Source: Fibrobacter sp. UWB16 (GTDB lineage: Bacteria; Fibrobacterota; Fibrobacteria; Fibrobacterales; Fibrobacteraceae). From it: DNA of 64,000 nucleotides. Location: the NCBI RefSeq assembly GCF_900215325.1, contig NZ_OCMS01000001.1:1240001-1304000 (forward strand), written 5' to 3'. Both the position numbers and the translations under genes were made by a program. Position 1 is the first letter of the stretch, and the number at the start of each line of letters is the position of its first letter. Of this stretch, positions 37,601 through 47,688 are shown in pieces. Under the pieces are notes generated by a model that was not told the origin of the DNA, did not search any database, and saw nothing but the letters and a program-made list of their open reading frames with translations.

Positions 37601-38125
37601 TTATTTCGCCTTGACGCAACGGACGGAGGCGGCGATGGTCTTGTTGTAATGTTCATACGTTACTTTGTCCTGTACGCGGACCATCACAGCGCGGGATTCG
37701 TCGAATGCATCAGCAGTCCAGAAGCTTGCGCTCACGTTTTCGTCAGCGAACTTGCCATCGTAATAGCGGAAGCCATCCTTACCAATGTTGAGAGCCTTGA
37801 GATCGGCCTTTTCAAAGTCTGCCTGTTTTGGGAGTTCCCAGCCTGTGGGGCATGCGTCATTAGCGGATTTCCAATCGTAGAGGCGGCCATACTTTTTGCA
37901 GTTGTCGAGGTTATTGCCGTAGCAGTAACTGGAATCAAAATTCAGAAGGTTGGCGTTTTCAGCCATCCACACGCGGCCACCCGTTTCGACGGTGGAATAG
38001 GTCTGGCCTTGGCATTTGAGCGTCTTGGCGGATTCATCGTAGTGGCAGTTTTCAACTTTTTCGCATGCAGTAAATGCAATTGCGGTTACAAAAAGAGCCA
38101 ATACGGCAACGAACTTGAACTTCAT
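37601..38125 (-). CDS. Short FISUMP-domain lipoprotein
   Basis: A 174-residue lipoprotein. The ATG at 38125 gives MKFKFVAVLALFVTAIAFTAC (lipobox FTAC); the open frame upstream has no signal peptide and lacks a better ribosome site. Nearly the whole mature protein is one FISUMP domain: GQTYSTVETGGRVWMAENANLLNF, YGNNLDNCKKYGRLYDWKSANDACPTGWELP and the C-terminal ASVRCVKAK. The family (Fibrobacter succinogenes major paralogous domain) has no known biochemical role. Its paired cysteines suggest disulfides outside the cytoplasm. No TIGR02147 gene accompanies it. It is the smallest FISUMP protein in the window. Confidence 0.88.
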   Translation of the reverse strand: MKFKFVAVLALFVTAIAFTACEKVENCHYDESAKTLKCQGQTYSTVETGGRVWMAENANLLNFDSSYCYGNNLDNCKKYGRLYDWKSANDACPTGWELPKQADFEKADLKALNIGKDGFRYYDGKFADENVSASFWTADAFDESRAVMVRVQDKVTYEHYNKTIAASVRCVKAK

Positions 38126-38307
38126 ATGTTCAATCTCCTTAAGATTGTTTTGGGCACCTCCATTTCTAGAGGCTGCCATTAATGATTTTTTCAAGAGCTC
38201 TTTTTTTCGGGCACAAATGTAGATGGAATTAGCCGTTTTGACTAATACTTTCTTTCAATAAGATTCATAATTTTTATTGATGAATTAAGAAAATTCTATA
38301 AGACAAT

Positions 38308-39669
38308 TTAAATCGTTTGGGATGTACTAAGGATTTCCCAATAGCCTTCCTTTTTTCCATTTCGTCGCGCAATAACATTGGCTTTCTTCATCTTGTTGAT
38401 ATGATAACGAATCCCATCAATTGTGATATTGCCAATAATTTCAGCCAATTCTTTATTTGTTACAGAAGGCCGCTCTCTGATAATTTCAAGAATCTGACGT
38501 GTTTTGTTATCGGTAGTCTTATCGGTAGTCTTATCGGTAGTCTTATCGGTAGTTCTCCGCGCGAAAACACTAACTTTTAGCCCACTCCCTACAATTTCGA
38601 ATTTTGGAACACTAAGTCCAGCAGCACGGAACAATTCGATCACACGCGTAACACCCGATCCATACTTTTCAATTTCGCCTAACTGATGAAAATGATTGGC
38701 TATAGCCTTGTTGCGAAGAGTTGAAAGATACTGATTATTCAATAAATCTTCAACATTCATACCATCCAACAATCGACCAGGATTAAAAAATTCAATATGA
38801 TCTGAAAACACCTTAACACATGATTCAGAAGGAGATCGATAATCTCGATGCACTACCATATTTAAAATCAGTTCACGTAGCGCATCTAAGGGATAATCCC
38901 AAACCAAATCATTTTCTGGCTTACCCGTAATCACAACAGCGCAATTTATATGTTTCTTAACAAAATTGAAAATTCGCTCAACCTGACTTACCAAATCGCC
39001 CTGCGCTTCATCTCGATCCTTAATAACCGTCGGAGTCTGAAAGAATCCCATTTGGACAGCAGTATTCATATGCCACTCTTTGGCGAAAAGCATCTCAGCC
39101 GCAAAGGTTAATTTACCGTTCCTTAACAATCGATTCTTTCGTAAAAAATCTAGAGGATCTTGAGAAACGTGATATCCACGTTGATTTATCCGTTGAATAC
39201 TCTGTTCTACTTTTTCAAGCGAAATATCATTTAAAGAACTAGAATCATCCAATACATAATCCCAACTTGAATTTTGCGTCTGAAGCATGCAATCACCTAT
39301 TTCCGCAGGAGTCATAATATGATTGCTGTTTTTATGACGCATAAAGCAACGCCCCTGAACTGCCACTGGTTTTACAGCACTTTCTCGAACAACTATAGCT
39401 ATTAGATTTTTCCCTTTATATTTAAAGGACTCCACATCAGGAACTTGCACCGGCTCTGTTTTGCTTTTTATTTCATTAATCCATTGTTGCAAACTTTCTG
39501 CACCTAATTGTAAGCCATGAACTTTTTCACTCGATTTAAGCCCAATAATTATGGATCCACCATGCTTATTCGCAAACGCACATACGGATTCTATAACCTC
39601 TTGGTTAAAAGAAGACTTAAATTCTATTTTTTCATTTTCTCCTAACGTTATCAGCTCCTCAAAGTTCAC
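38308..39669 (-). CDS. AlbA_2/Schlafen-type ATP-binding transcriptional regulator-like protein
   Basis: A 453-residue protein starting at a GTG 8 bases after GAGG. Domains: an AlbA_2 (divergent AAA-4/Schlafen-like) domain at about 1-120 (ENEKIEFKSSFN, ANKHGGSIIIGL), a GHKL-like ATPase module at about 240-370 (YPLDALRELILNMVVHRDYRSP, IEFFNPGRLLDGM, NHFHQLGEIEKYGSGV), and a C-terminal winged helix (PSVTNKELAEIIGNITIDGIRYHINKMKKANVI). Such proteins are common in prophages and islands and are thought to regulate transcription or act in defence; the role here is open. A TTDK tandem repeat joins the last two domains. The gene lies between two FISUMP genes. Confidence 0.83.
   Translation of the reverse strand: MNFEELITLGENEKIEFKSSFNQEVIESVCAFANKHGGSIIIGLKSSEKVHGLQLGAESLQQWINEIKSKTEPVQVPDVESFKYKGKNLIAIVVRESAVKPVAVQGRCFMRHKNSNHIMTPAEIGDCMLQTQNSSWDYVLDDSSSLNDISLEKVEQSIQRINQRGYHVSQDPLDFLRKNRLLRNGKLTFAAEMLFAKEWHMNTAVQMGFFQTPTVIKDRDEAQGDLVSQVERIFNFVKKHINCAVVITGKPENDLVWDYPLDALRELILNMVVHRDYRSPSESCVKVFSDHIEFFNPGRLLDGMNVEDLLNNQYLSTLRNKAIANHFHQLGEIEKYGSGVTRVIELFRAAGLSVPKFEIVGSGLKVSVFARRTTDKTTDKTTDKTTDNKTRQILEIIRERPSVTNKELAEIIGNITIDGIRYHINKMKKANVIARRNGKKEGYWEILSTSQTI
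38507..38554. repeat. 12-bp tandem repeat, four units, inside the 38308 gene
   Basis: Four in-frame copies of TTATCGGTAGTC (last base changed in unit 4) encode TTDK-TTDK-TTDK-TTDN in the linker before the winged helix. Unit gain or loss would keep the frame and change linker length. Confidence 0.9.
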
Positions 39670-39981
39670 TTAAAGCACCTCATTTTTTTCCAAACAGCCT
39701 GCCGTTGTCATCAATATAATAAAAGCATTTGCAACACAGCAAGAGGCCGCAAATACCGATTTTGCGAAATAAACTTCCTAATTAGAGTAGATAATTATTT
39801 TCTTTTTCGAAAAGAACACTTTCATCACTAAAAAAATATGGTATATTTATTTTGACGTTAAGTTTTTTTTCACAAAAGAAATTTAACGGTTATAGCAGAT
39901 ACCTTTTGCTGAAGGAATTCTTTAAGCGCATTAAGAAGGAGCGTTATAGGAAAACCCCAAATTGTATTTGCAAATAGATTT

Positions 39982-40207
39982 TAGAGTTCGCTCTTATTCT
40001 AGCAATTGGAAAACGACCAAAATTTCAATCCTCTAGGAATAAGGCAGAGCACTCACACCTCGTGGTGTGGGTCGTTTGTGCCTACTAGAAGGAAAAGGTT
40101 TCTTGGTCGTTACCTCAATTGCTGTGGGTGCTTGCGATTCCACACTTTTTTATTGGAATCAAGCACCCATTGTAAGGGGAACTCCGCGAGTTTTTTAACC
40201 ACGGAGG
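39982..40207 (+). promoter_or_regulatory. Structured 5' leader of FISUMP lipoprotein gene
   Basis: The roughly 540 bp before the 40213 gene hold no other gene. A rod-like element pairs AGCAATTG 40001-40008 with CAATTGCT 40116-40123, AACGACCA 40012-40019 with TGGTCGTT 40104-40111, TCCTCTAG 40029-40036 with CTAG-a-AGGA 40085-40093, AGGCA with TGCCT, and ends in CACACC-TCGT-GGTGTG (40054-40069). A UUCG hairpin AGAG-TTCG-CTCT precedes it. A strong hairpin GGGTGCTTG/CAAGCACCC (40126-40134/40160-40168) follows, then AACTC-CGC-GAGTT with a T-run (40180-40196), terminator-like. CTCCG in that last hairpin can instead pair with CGGAG of the ribosome site (40202-40206). It could be a riboswitch-like leader or an sRNA. 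Upstream, about 39840-39880, is AT-rich promoter-like sequence. Confidence 0.6.
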
Positions 40208-40212
40208 TCAAT

Positions 40213-41781
40213 ATGAAGAAGACAAACCTAATCACACTAGTAAGAAACATCATTCTTACATTTCCACTATATTCCGCTGCATTTATTGGTTGTGGCGAAG
40301 AAGTTACCGAAGTCACAAATGTGACAAATGAAGTAACGGGAATGGAGCAAGTCAAAAAATATTCAGACTTGCCCAAATGCTCTTCTGATAATTTCGGTTT
40401 GATATACTACGTATCAGACTCTGCCAAAGTATTTTACTGCAACGAAAAGAAATGGCTAACACTAAACGGAAGCAACGGAAAAGATGGTTCAGACGGTAAA
40501 GACGGCAAGAACGGCACCAACGGAAAGGACGGCGTTTCTCCCGTATTGTTCGATTCAGCTGGGAATTATATCCCAGGAAACGGCGACTCAATTACCGTTG
40601 TGATAAAAAACTATGGTAAAACCGTTACGGGGCTAGGGGAATGCACTTCCAAACGCGAAGGCGAAGTTGCACATTTAGACTCTGTAGACAACCCCCTATA
40701 TTACATCTGCAAGTCCAAATCATGGAAAACAGCGACACCGCTTGAATATGACACCTATAAATGGGCAGACACAACTGATGGTGCGTCAAAATTAGGAAAA
40801 GTCACCAAGAAAATGTACGTTTTCGACAAGACTAAATGGCGTGCAGCAATTGGTGCAGAAATCGAACTAGGACTATGCATTGAAAAACGTACTGGCGAAG
40901 TGTCTAAATATTACGAAGTTTATTTTACATGCAACAACAGGCAGTGGAGTCCTTCGACTCTGCTTGAGTATGATACTTACGGGAAAGACTGCCTAGAAAA
41001 CGGATCTATTGATAGCGGTAAAATTTTTCCCTATAACAAGTATGTGTGTGATAGAGGAATGTTTAGATTCGCCATGCCAATGGAATTAGCTATAAAGCAA
41101 GGATGTTCTAGCTACAACAAGGGCGAAAAGGTCCAATATCAGTATTCGAATTATGTGTGTGACCCAGATTCGAGTATAGCATGGAATGTTTACTACAATA
41201 CCGATTTGTGGTTTGCAGATAGAGATTCATCTGGGTGGAGTTTCGATTTTGACCATATAAACATGGGAACAATGAAAGACCCCCGTGATGGCAAGGTATA
41301 CAAAACCGTAGGGCTGAAATCACAAATGTGGATGGCAGAAAATTTGAAATATGAACTGAAGGGGAGTTACTGCTATCACGATAGTTTGAAGTATTGTGAT
41401 AAATATGGAGTATATTACAAAGAGTCTTCAATTTCGAAGGCATGCCCCGAAGGATGGCACGTTCCAACAGCAATAGAATGGGGAGTATTGTTTAGTTTAC
41501 CAATTACGCAAAATCCGGATGGATTGTGGATAGACGGCGAATACAAATTTAATTATGACGCAACAGGTCCTTGCCGTTCAGAATCAACATACAACGGACA
41601 TACCACAGTAAATTGGTATGATAACGACTGTGCTGATGGATATTGGACATCGAGTAAAGGTGGAGATTACTATTTAGTGACATCCATTAGTAGTGGTTAT
41701 GGTTATTATGAGTATACGACTACAACGGTTTATGATAATAATGAAGTTCGTCAAATTCGTTGCATTAAAGATACGGAATAA
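40213..41781 (+). CDS. FISUMP-domain lipoprotein with collagen-like segment
   Basis: A 522-residue lipoprotein starting at ATG 40213, with GGAGG 5 bp upstream; the signal MKKTNLITLVRNIILTFPLYSAAFIGC has lipobox FIGC. Residues about 90-115 are Gly-X-Y triplets (GSNGKDGSDGKDGKNGTNGK), collagen-like. After that come three repeats of a module with a Cys pair, aromatic residues and a conserved LxEYDTY. The C-terminal 170 residues are the FISUMP domain (GTMKDPRDGKVYKTVGLKSQMWMAENLKYEL, CPEGWHVPTAIEWGVLF, ending VRQIRCIKDTE). It is a surface protein of unknown ligand, on the opposite strand from the other FISUMP genes, with no TIGR02147 partner but a structured leader. Confidence 0.88.
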   Translation: MKKTNLITLVRNIILTFPLYSAAFIGCGEEVTEVTNVTNEVTGMEQVKKYSDLPKCSSDNFGLIYYVSDSAKVFYCNEKKWLTLNGSNGKDGSDGKDGKNGTNGKDGVSPVLFDSAGNYIPGNGDSITVVIKNYGKTVTGLGECTSKREGEVAHLDSVDNPLYYICKSKSWKTATPLEYDTYKWADTTDGASKLGKVTKKMYVFDKTKWRAAIGAEIELGLCIEKRTGEVSKYYEVYFTCNNRQWSPSTLLEYDTYGKDCLENGSIDSGKIFPYNKYVCDRGMFRFAMPMELAIKQGCSSYNKGEKVQYQYSNYVCDPDSSIAWNVYYNTDLWFADRDSSGWSFDFDHINMGTMKDPRDGKVYKTVGLKSQMWMAENLKYELKGSYCYHDSLKYCDKYGVYYKESSISKACPEGWHVPTAIEWGVLFSLPITQNPDGLWIDGEYKFNYDATGPCRSESTYNGHTTVNWYDNDCADGYWTSSKGGDYYLVTSISSGYGYYEYTTTTVYDNNEVRQIRCIKDTE

Positions 41782-42907: not shown

Positions 42908-44659
42908 TCAATTTTTAACGCAACGGATCGAGAAATCTTGCATATAGAAGCCTTCCAGCACAGTCCAACTCACAAAATTTATTCCAAGCAATGTGTATTT
43001 GCCATCACCGTCCCGCGTCAAAGAGGGGTATGTTTCTACGGCCAAATCACCAAAACCGATTTGTGTCAAATTCCGCCCCATCCGACCATCTACACGGCAG
43101 ATTTCACCGCACGACTCACGCACAAAGTCAAACAATTCATTCCATTCCTCGCCTTGCGGGATATGCCATCCGTCCGGACATAGGCCTTGATAATACCCGT
43201 TCGCCGTTTCAACAGAATCAACATAGGTAGCAAGCTTTGACGACCCGAAATATCCATCATCAAAATCAATAACATAACGGCAAACCAAAGTGTCCAAAAC
43301 GTCCGCAGGTTGTTCCAGCCCCGTAAGGCAATCACTATAAAAAACAAGTGCTTGATTCGGATCCAGGCCCAAAACGTCTTCAACATTTTCATAACGAACC
43401 CAAGTGTTCCAATACGCAGAATCAAGCGTGTTGCGATATTCCAGAAAATCACGGTCACCCCCTTGATCGCGGGCAACTTCAGCAGAATCATACCCCACAG
43501 CAGGGACAATTCGTTCATCGCTGTAATTCAGATTTTCGGCCATCCAAGTCATCGGTTTTCCATTTATATTATACGTAACCGTACGGTAAGTTTTTCCGTC
43601 ACGCGGATCCGTCATCGACCCCGTTTCGTAATCCACCTGTTCAGCAATCTTGTATCTATAAGTCTTACGCCACTGTTTAGCGTTGCAAGTCAAAACGGCC
43701 CAGCGCTCATAATCGATATCGATTTCCAAAGAGCGGCCATCATTACCGTCATCGCATTTACCGAGTCCATTTATGCCGGCCATCAACTGAGTCAAATATT
43801 CTTTTTCGCCTTCATTTTGGGCATAGACAAATTCAAAATCCAAGCGCCACGAGAATGTATTTTTCACGGAGTCGTTCGCTGCGAAAGATCCAGTCTGAGC
43901 AAAGGTTTTAAAAGAAGCCAAAGGCGTTTCCGAGTCACCCCAACCAACGACAAGCGAGCTCAAGTAGCGCAACGCCATCTGCTTGTAATCATCTTCCCAA
44001 TAGTCAAGTTTGTCAAAATCAAATGTCGCATCAAAAAGACCAACAGCATCTAAAACCTCACGGTCGGCCTGTTGTTTTGCAGCGACAAAGCTCATCCCTT
44101 GCTTCACCAAGTACCGCACGCGAATCGCTTCGAGATAGGTCATCATGTTGATGCCGACATTTTTCGTTTCGCGCAGGTCCACAATAGCACTATACAGCAC
44201 ATCGTCATCAAACGACCAAGTACCATCCCACTCCCAATAAGCATTTTCTTGCCATGGAGAGAGTTCAAGCAAGACATACGGACTATGGACTGTCACGCTA
44301 TCAAAACGGAACATCCCAGACGTATCCGTGCAGCGCGTCATATAAGAAGCACCAGTTGTATCCAAAGTAACAGAATCAAGTTCAGACATTCTTATTACGG
44401 ATCCCAATTCGACATCGCTAATCAAGGCAAGAGGAGTACCACCAACAGAATCGGCAGCCAAGCGCACAGCCATCACATTCACGGATATATTTTTAAGCAG
44501 TGCAGTTTCTTCCGTGGAGCCACCATCATGCGCAAGCGGAGACCGATCAAGATCTTCGGAACAGCTCGAAAGAAACAAGAGAAGAAGCAGCGCTACAATC
44601 AGGCAAAACGCCGCTTCTACAAAATCACGCCACAGCGTGTTTTGATCTGATTTTTTCAT
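42908..44659 (-). CDS. FISUMP-domain lipoprotein, module 1
   Basis: A 583-residue lipoprotein (signal AAFCLIVALLLLLFLSSC, lipobox LSSC near residue 33). Residues about 50-135 resemble a carboxypeptidase-regulatory-type beta sandwich shared with modules 2-4 (VIRMSELDSVTLDTTGASY, FRFDSVTVHSPYVLLEL). A helical middle follows (MTYLEAIRVRYLVKQGMSFVAAKQQADREVLDAVGLF). The C-terminal third is the FISUMP domain (GSMTDPRDGKTYRTVTYNINGKPMTWMAENLNY, CPDGWHIPQGEEWNELF, FSIRCVKN). The ATG is 8 bp after the TIGR02147 gene, and the stop codon TAG of that gene is part of the ribosome site TAGGAGG, so the two are coupled. Likely surface-exposed; ligand unknown. Confidence 0.88.
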   Translation of the reverse strand: MKKSDQNTLWRDFVEAAFCLIVALLLLLFLSSCSEDLDRSPLAHDGGSTEETALLKNISVNVMAVRLAADSVGGTPLALISDVELGSVIRMSELDSVTLDTTGASYMTRCTDTSGMFRFDSVTVHSPYVLLELSPWQENAYWEWDGTWSFDDDVLYSAIVDLRETKNVGINMMTYLEAIRVRYLVKQGMSFVAAKQQADREVLDAVGLFDATFDFDKLDYWEDDYKQMALRYLSSLVVGWGDSETPLASFKTFAQTGSFAANDSVKNTFSWRLDFEFVYAQNEGEKEYLTQLMAGINGLGKCDDGNDGRSLEIDIDYERWAVLTCNAKQWRKTYRYKIAEQVDYETGSMTDPRDGKTYRTVTYNINGKPMTWMAENLNYSDERIVPAVGYDSAEVARDQGGDRDFLEYRNTLDSAYWNTWVRYENVEDVLGLDPNQALVFYSDCLTGLEQPADVLDTLVCRYVIDFDDGYFGSSKLATYVDSVETANGYYQGLCPDGWHIPQGEEWNELFDFVRESCGEICRVDGRMGRNLTQIGFGDLAVETYPSLTRDGDGKYTLLGINFVSWTVLEGFYMQDFSIRCVKN

Positions 44660-45897: not shown

Positions 45898-47688
45898 TTA
45901 TTTCTTGATGCAGCGGACAGCGGCAGAAGTATTCGGTGCATAAGGGCTATTGTCATACCCCTCACTTTCTATTCTTTTCACAAAGACATGCATATCCGCC
46001 AACCCTAAACTAAAGCCAATGGGTTTCCAATTGAAAATCTCCAGTTTATACAAAGGCACATCCGCTAAAACAAACTCGTTAGTGTACCCAAAGGTTATGA
46101 AATACACAAGACGAAGTTCTTCCTCAATGCTAGCCTGAACCCAGCCATTCAAACCAAATCCCGTCGCAACAGCATCATAAAGCGCCGGCAAAACGTCATT
46201 TTGATCAACACCATATCGTTCACCCATATTTCGCAACAACGTTTGCCAATCTTCAAATGTCGGGATTCTCCACCCATCCGGGCAAACGCCCTGATACGCA
46301 TTATGATTAGACGGTGTGATATAATCTGTATAATTCCAAGTCCAAGTTTTTTCAGAATTTTCTTCAGACGAATCCGACTTTGCAAAATACGTTGTATCCC
46401 CTAGAGCATCAACGGAATACACCTTCACATCATCGTCTCCAATATTCATTGCGGCTTTCCACTGATATTCATGCCCATACACACCACAATCCGCACTTCT
46501 AGAATCTTCCTTGCGGTAGCAGTCGATACTTCCAGACAAATTCGCTCTTAACGAACTATCAACGCTCAAAGATGTGGTATCCACAAAATCAAGATTTTCA
46601 GCCATCCATGTTTGCGAGACATCGCCCCAATTATACGTCACCGTCTTATAAGTTTTTCCATCTCGATTATCCGTCATAGAACCCATGGTATGTTCAATCG
46701 TTTTAAATCCCAAGGTCCACTTAGAGGAGCGGCAAACCACAGACACCTTACCATGAGCGACGTCAATTTCAGCGACCGCATTTTCACGAGCATCCGTGCA
46801 CTTGCCAAGGTCATTCAATCGAGCCAAATAGCCAACCTTATAGTCTATCATTTTTTTCGAATTCAAATAATATTGTTCTCGAATTTCACCTCGTCCGACA
46901 AATAATTTCGGCGGCACGGCATAAACGAGCATAGGATCCATTCCTCGAAGATCTTTAAGCACATCTTTTTCGCACATTCGAATCAGTTCATTCACATAAG
47001 CCAATTCAGAATTTCCGTCTTTTAAATTTTCAAATCCACCGAAATCTTCATATATACCAAGATTTTCAAGGATTTCGCGCTCCGCCATTTCGCCCGCCTC
47101 CGCAAAGGATTTTCCTTCAGCGAAATACTTTTGCAACAACGGCATCTTGGAAGTAGTGAGAGAGCTTACACTTACTTTTTTCACATCTCTCAAATCCACA
47201 ATAGCCTTCAACTCCTGCGAATACATACGACGGTCACGTGAACTATCTACCATGCTTGCCGGCCTAGACGCATTACGCCCATAGAAAGCTCCACGTTCTC
47301 GACAATCTTCTACATAGCACGAATCCAAAGTTTCAATCAGCACATATGGGCTATTTAGAGCCAACGACTCAAATGCAAAACGACCACTATCATTATCAAC
47401 GGTATCTACAAAAGAACGGCCCGTTTTTTCAAGCGTCAACGAATCCAATTCATAAACAGAAACAACCGTCCCCTTAGCAGCAAACACAGAACCATCGTTC
47501 TTCAAAGAATCCTCCGATCCGTTCTCGTCCGCTGTCGACCTCAGCAACGCAGGATACACATCGCCCACGCGACCAGCCAAGGAGTACACGCACGTTTCTT
47601 CTTCAGTACCACCAGCAACATCATTATCAGAGCAAGCCGTCCAAAGGAGCGCCATCAGCGCAGCCGAAGTAATTTTGTTGAAATTCAT
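45898..47688 (-). CDS. FISUMP-domain lipoprotein, module 2
   Basis: A 596-residue lipoprotein (MNFNKITSAALMALLWTAC, lipobox WTAC). After a short Asp/Glu-rich spacer comes the beta-sandwich region (YSLAGRVGDVYPALL, GTVVSVYELDSLTLEKTGRSFVDTVDNDSGRFAFESLALNSPYVLIE), a helical region (MPLLQKYFAEGKSFAEAGEMAEREILENLGIY), and the FISUMP domain (GSMTDNRDGKTYKTVTYNWG, TWMAENLDFVDT, CPDGWRIPTFEDWQTLL, AVRCIKK). The signal and first 130 residues closely resemble module 3, so these two are recent duplicates in that part, while the middle and tail differ more. Translation is coupled to the regulator at 47698 through TTAGGAGG. Confidence 0.88.
   Translation of the reverse strand: MNFNKITSAALMALLWTACSDNDVAGGTEEETCVYSLAGRVGDVYPALLRSTADENGSEDSLKNDGSVFAAKGTVVSVYELDSLTLEKTGRSFVDTVDNDSGRFAFESLALNSPYVLIETLDSCYVEDCRERGAFYGRNASRPASMVDSSRDRRMYSQELKAIVDLRDVKKVSVSSLTTSKMPLLQKYFAEGKSFAEAGEMAEREILENLGIYEDFGGFENLKDGNSELAYVNELIRMCEKDVLKDLRGMDPMLVYAVPPKLFVGRGEIREQYYLNSKKMIDYKVGYLARLNDLGKCTDARENAVAEIDVAHGKVSVVCRSSKWTLGFKTIEHTMGSMTDNRDGKTYKTVTYNWGDVSQTWMAENLDFVDTTSLSVDSSLRANLSGSIDCYRKEDSRSADCGVYGHEYQWKAAMNIGDDDVKVYSVDALGDTTYFAKSDSSEENSEKTWTWNYTDYITPSNHNAYQGVCPDGWRIPTFEDWQTLLRNMGERYGVDQNDVLPALYDAVATGFGLNGWVQASIEEELRLVYFITFGYTNEFVLADVPLYKLEIFNWKPIGFSLGLADMHVFVKRIESEGYDNSPYAPNTSAAVRCIKK

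Follow-up and report, generated by a model that had tools for sequence, protein, structure and literature searches.

Why should a lipoprotein gene of Fibrobacter sp. UWB16 be preceded by a gap of 543 bp (39669 to 40213) with, as an earlier note had already observed, no plausible gene inside? That note had proposed that this part of the window (the whole stretch of 64,000 nt that was analyzed) encodes a long structured RNA, either a cis-regulatory leader of the attenuator type or a small RNA. The answer we favor, with a probability of about 0.6, is that positions 39980–40151 carry a copy of a 5′ leader RNA that is spread across the Fibrobacteraceae and would work as a transcription attenuator. 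On the best reading of the compared sequences, this attenuator would control defense and surface accessory genes.

Anatomy of the leader at the window locus

The leader stretch of 236 nt folds at −93 kcal/mol, against −58.6 ± 4.7 kcal/mol for dinucleotide shuffles (z = −7.3; 0 of 200). This lies far beyond chance, because compensatory changes keep the structure in many relatives. The parts described previously are all present where they had been placed: the nested rod, the 15-bp hairpin, a small hairpin AACTC-CGC-GAGTT with a T6 run at 40180–40196, and the complementarity between CTCCG and the ribosome site (Table 1). Their proposed roles fared differently. The hairpin at 40180–40196, which had been read as the terminator, is not conserved in relatives, and the likelier terminator is the helix of strands B and C that abuts another T6 run. 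This run, at 40146–40151, is the 3′ end of the conserved element and falls in the loop of the 15-bp hairpin; many DNA alignments to other Fibrobacter genomes stop exactly there, at window position 40151. The 15-bp pairing itself (C:D) is weak as a family-wide part, with z below −2 in 29 of 126 copies, and was rejected as such.

Table 1. Features of the leader and the gene behind it (window positions; roles are putative; CM, covariance model)
Feature	Position	Strand	Basis
−10-like box GTATTTG, family consensus TATATTTA	39964–39970	+	alignment of 31 copies; consensus over 79 copies
P1 hairpin AGAG-UUCG-CUCU, 5′ end	39983–39994	+	copy alignments, CM
Rod P2–P6	40002–40122	+	covariation: sequence-only alignment; CM alignments of 82 and 47 distinct copies
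P2	40002–40008 / 40116–40122	+	covariation
P3	40013–40020 / 40103–40110	+	covariation
P4	40030–40036 / 40085–40092	+	covariation
P5–P6	within 40039–40086	+	covariation
Strand A: 5′ side of P5–P6, pairs with B in rod (antiterminator arm)	40039–40059	+	covariation
Strand B: 3′ side of P5–P6, common to rod and terminator helix	40065–40086	+	covariation, duplex energies
Strand C: about 20 bp pairing with B directly before T-run (terminator stem)	40121–40145	+	duplex energies, covariation
T6 run, near-invariant 3′ end of element (terminator U-tract)	40146–40151	+	alignments
Strand D: pairs with C as 15-bp hairpin 40126–40168; variable, complementary in some copies only	40152–40168	+	
CTCCG (40182–40186) / CGGAG (40202–40206), may cover Shine–Dalgarno site	40182–40206	+	copy alignment
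Lipoprotein gene with Fib_succ_major (FISUMP) domain, putative regulated gene	40213–41781	+	Pfam PF09603, E = 7.4e-10

Across copies, the element extends for about 170 nt, or 230 nt in one subfamily, from a conserved promoter to a closing, near-invariant U-run. From 5′ to 3′, its parts are the promoter, an extra 5′ hairpin in most non-lipoprotein copies, P1, a conserved CUCUUAUUC, the rod, strand C, and the T-run. In the alignment of 31 copies, TATATTTA followed by GACATAG immediately precedes the element, the flanks farther upstream being unrelated; transcription would probably start near GACATAG, at about 39973–39978. Outside the helices, conservation extends to AA facing CC between P2 and P3 and to bases around P5.

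No tRNA or tmRNA was found, Rfam 15 gave 0 matches in the window at gathering score, and nothing plausible appeared on 39680–40260 even at E up to 10; known riboswitches, the T-box, 6S RNA, and any other Rfam family were rejected for want of a match. Neither the earlier suggestion of a 6S-like RNA nor that of a free-standing small RNA finds support, the element always being a leader and never a free-standing gene. A long open reading frame running from TTG 40006 through the leader into the lipoprotein was judged an accident of conserved sequence, because relatives differ by indels whose lengths are not divisible by three. DNA searching recovered a second copy in the source genome (C1:202556-202725, minus strand, 77% identity), and both copies stand before lipoprotein genes. 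The window has further lipoprotein-like, FISUMP-like genes without a leader (37601–38194, 42908–44659, and 45898–47688); with only two copies in the genome, the RNA is therefore not a general FISUMP leader.

Covariation of the rod and of the B:C helix

Compensatory changes, whose absence from homologs would by the earlier note have refuted its reading, were looked for in the aligned copies and were found. Rod cells are paired in 97.7% of cases, and 835 show two-sided change; shuffling gives 234 ± 14 such cells, and sliding the strands no more than 133. Covariation supports 32 of the 45 rod pairs in the covariance-model alignment, and the diverged copy set holds 502 two-sided rod changes where 153 would be expected. 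Structure-guided, model-fitted alignments lean towards the rod, whereas the sequence-only alignment, which does not, still holds 148 two-sided rod cells versus 47 in shuffles. P3 is invariant in the close copy set and fully covarying in the wider one. The aligned copies thus show that the long rod (P2–P6) is conserved by compensatory change. Together with the fixed place upstream of genes and the conserved promoter, this gives strong support to the earlier proposal of a cis-regulatory, attenuator-like leader.

The aligned copies also show that the helix between strands B and C covaries. Averaged over 128 copies, the B:C duplex has 21 pairs and −27 kcal/mol and abuts the T-run; when C is swapped between copies, B:C loses 4.3 kcal/mol on average, against 0.1 and −1.0 for control strand pairs. 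The sequence-only alignment has 97.5% of B:C cells paired, compared with 35–58% when slid, and 18 two-sided changes where 5.5 ± 2.7 are expected. Counted by pairs with two-sided change, the excess is modest (4 vs. 2.4, a value of 4 being reached in 43 of 500 shuffles). Columns 82 (rod partner), 95, and 174 (terminator partner) change in concert, A-U/U-A giving way to G-C/C-G, and so tie the rod to the terminator helix.

Because the rod and the B:C helix both use strand B, the two folds are mutually exclusive on topological grounds. As aligned, a strand common to two covarying folds is the signature of an antiterminator and a terminator. Sequence features that mark an attenuator—a terminator stem followed directly by a U-run (here B:C abutting T6), an exclusive antiterminator that shares a strand with it, compensatory change in both, and a position upstream of a same-strand gene—are present. 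Weighing against attenuation, the full rod is by nearest-neighbor energies more stable than the forced B:C state by 11.8 ± 6.0 kcal/mol on average, the two being nearly equal in several C5-methylase members. With the rod thus favored, read-through looks like the thermodynamic default, and for termination something would have to hold the 5′ strands. The unusually large loop of the B:C hairpin, about 35–45 nt, also counts against it.

Distribution and the genes behind the leader

Of 80 Fibrobacter genomes, 52 gave copies on DNA searching and 78 did so with a covariance model, for which 30 copies had served as input. Phylum-wide, 87 of 168 genomes, many of them drafts with mechanical gene calls, were positive by covariance model (78 Fibrobacter and 9 from four sister genera), and none of the others scanned, outside these five genera of one family, contained the element. 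Copies number 1 to 19 per genome, and 2 to 19 in each of the 12 genomes searched more deeply. A core DNA pattern run over 84,980 species matched only Fibrobacter records (one titled Fibrobacterales bacterium) and, by chance, one Comamonadaceae contig (L128) without a covariance-model match; no copy was found in the viral contigs, phages, and plasmids searched. The RNA family was previously unlisted and belongs to no curated RNA family.

The first gene lies on the same strand as the element, usually 57–101 nt past the T-run; its start codon falls within 150 nt in 106 of 123 copies (median 67). Most copies with a more distant start codon belong to the C5-methylase subfamily, where a second half-element intervenes. 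Among the three copies without a called gene, one (L162) does have a methylase there, and the other two (L095 and the second L158 copy) lie near a contig end. Downstream genes of 132 fetched copies were classified by PADLOC, Pfam, and similarity; because loci were chosen by score and diversity, the resulting counts are not frequencies. Restriction-modification (R-M) genes of all main types (I, II, IIG, and III) stand behind about 70 copies, including type I methylase (16), type IIG (15), type III methylase (11), C5 methylase (11), and other type II or N6/N4 methylases and Tsp45I-type nucleases (16). The remaining copies precede a lipoprotein or secreted protein, as in the window (about 27), a family of 802 aa (8), DUF4417-type genes (6), a DrmD-like helicase (2), a GTPase (2), EndoU (2), a UvrD/GajB-like gene (1), or other unknowns. 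Counted in reverse, a leader lies within 2 kb upstream of 17 of 51 N6_Mtase genes in 12 genomes. The alignments and gene calls show an element that has its own conserved promoter and precedes a same-strand gene, most often an R-M operon; the tie to a FISUMP lipoprotein drawn earlier is true of the window copy and too narrow for the rest.

The 802-aa family (L086, L087, L088, L099, L108, L078, L124, and L076) has no PADLOC, Pfam, or NCBIfam match and is a candidate new defense gene. DUF4417-type operons (L079 808–2257 and 7737–10139; L080–L083) adjoin type III R-M and other leader-bearing systems, and these loci are defense islands with one leader per system.

This range of genes bears on an alternative in which termination at the U-run would yield an abundant, trans-acting RNA (about 175 nt) that works on proteins or other leaders in the manner of an antitoxin or small RNA, the gene being expressed by leak-through. 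Such an RNA would end at the U-run before the gene, as RCd22 does before abiF, where a terminated RNA before one defense gene acts as an antitoxin (PMC12373285), and cores so alike could let copies in one genome cross-talk. However, the downstream proteins (methylases, helicases, GTPases, lipoproteins) are unrelated, which makes it unlikely that one RNA fold binds each of them as an antitoxin, and this mode of action has no need for a strand B shared by two covarying alternatives. Likeness to the abiF RNA/RCd22 (RF03085) and to type III toxin–antitoxin RNAs extends to a structured RNA with promoter and intrinsic terminator 5′ of an anti-phage gene. The RNAs of those systems consist of repeats and recognize a single protein family, whereas here neither a single toxin family downstream nor tandem antitoxin repeats were found. 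We consider a trans-acting role unlikely.

The same leader type before unrelated genes could also denote a mobile promoter–leader cassette or recombination point, in which the fold is there for DNA exchange and any regulation comes second. Varying lipoprotein genes with the leader share one place beside trpB (L002, L006, L008, L012, L013, L017, L024, and L025), possibly a hot spot for gene exchange. Set against this are the many two-sided compensatory changes, the use of wobble pairs, and the U-run, all consistent with selection acting at the RNA level; the element was not seen to travel with a recombinase or to have a conserved 3′ boundary past the gene. An exchange cassette is, on this evidence, very improbable.

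Attenuation remains our preferred reading, and the element resembles riboswitch- or protein-controlled attenuators in its shared strand, its U-run before the gene, its conserved internal loops, and its leader position. It differs from them in lacking any known aptamer (even a permissive threshold brings up no Rfam match), and in that one Fibrobacteraceae leader family serves dozens of unrelated, mostly defense-type operons. Among defense genes, abiD1 yields a short, prematurely terminated leader transcript, and a phage protein binds its 5′ UTR and activates translation (PMC12373285); the likeness, as described, is a defense gene under 5′ UTR control, although abiD1 is a single gene. RptR, BrxR/CapW, CapR, and C proteins are DNA-binding regulators of defense operons that act at the promoter (PMC12255303), and EcoRI and Eco29kI are controlled by antisense RNA specific to one system (PMC3874152). 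These likewise control R-M or defense operons, whereas the shared element of the Fibrobacteraceae is a folded RNA. No description of an RNA leader common to many defense systems was found in the open-access literature searched. One RNA leader before unrelated R-M and conflict genes would differ from known defense-operon control, which is mainly by DNA-binding repressors or system-specific antisense RNA.

Putative mechanism and its variation among subfamilies

If the rod forms, strand B would be occupied and RNA polymerase would read through, leaving the gene on. If the 5′ strands are displaced or kept from pairing, B would instead pair with C to form an intrinsic terminator at the T6 run, turning the gene off and freeing a leader of about 175 nt. 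We infer this direction of control, read-through with the rod and termination with B:C, from sequence. The rod's conserved internal loops (GAAA facing CC, and the sequence around P5) would be the likely site for a protein, small molecule, or partner RNA. An infection-linked signal, or one tied to acquisition of new genes, is a natural guess because so many targets are anti-phage. More broadly, and only tentatively, one RNA-switch family could be the common control layer of the lineage's immune repertoire; it would sense a signal linked to infection or entry and co-ordinately open R-M operons of all types, other defense genes, and surface lipoproteins with a protective role, every system gained by horizontal transfer having been put under the same leader. 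If the leader does regulate defense operons, control of immunity could be tested through one RNA, with the leader also serving as a marker for new defense genes (the 802-aa family, DUF4417-type operons, and other unknowns behind it).

A simpler arrangement would be a constitutive terminator with a rod, setting a fixed low level of expression with no sensing. R-M genes are harmful when overexpressed, and the element has no known ligand or protein partner, both of which speak for such an arrangement; a fixed leak, however, needs neither two exclusive covarying folds nor conserved internal loops, and we judge it highly improbable.

In the lipoprotein copies the extra 5′ hairpin is missing, and the ribosome site is spanned by a CTCCN..NGGAG pairing, kept through a G-C to A-T change (CTCCG/CGGAG to CTCCA/TGGAG) and found also as CTCCATTG/CAATGGAG. 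A second, weaker layer of control may therefore cover the ribosome site in these members, for which the aligned sequences give modest support; the masking by CTCCG suggested for the window holds within this group and is not a common feature of the family. As a family-wide trait it was rejected, the pairing over all copies being only slightly in excess of controls (0.68 vs. 0.61) and differing between gene groups. Mainly translational control, with a leader that hides the ribosome site and opens on a signal, would draw on the compensatory change just described and on short AAGGGC..GCCCTT hairpins that, in type I and 802-aa members (L027, L091, L087, and relatives), surround the ribosome site immediately upstream of the start codon. 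The site pairing lies, however, outside the conserved element, which stops at the T-run, and translational control as the main mode likewise seems improbable.

Variation of another kind is seen in the C5-methylase and Tsp45I-type copies: the tip of their rod is longer by about 60 nt, and their T-run is followed by a second 5′ half of the element that has no 3′ partner of its own. This half comprises P2a-P3a-P4a-A (L148, L150, L151, L153, L155, L156, and L183) and in several of these copies is followed by a strong hairpin, a T-run, and then the methylase gene; the repeated half may be a second switching step, making a tandem switch.
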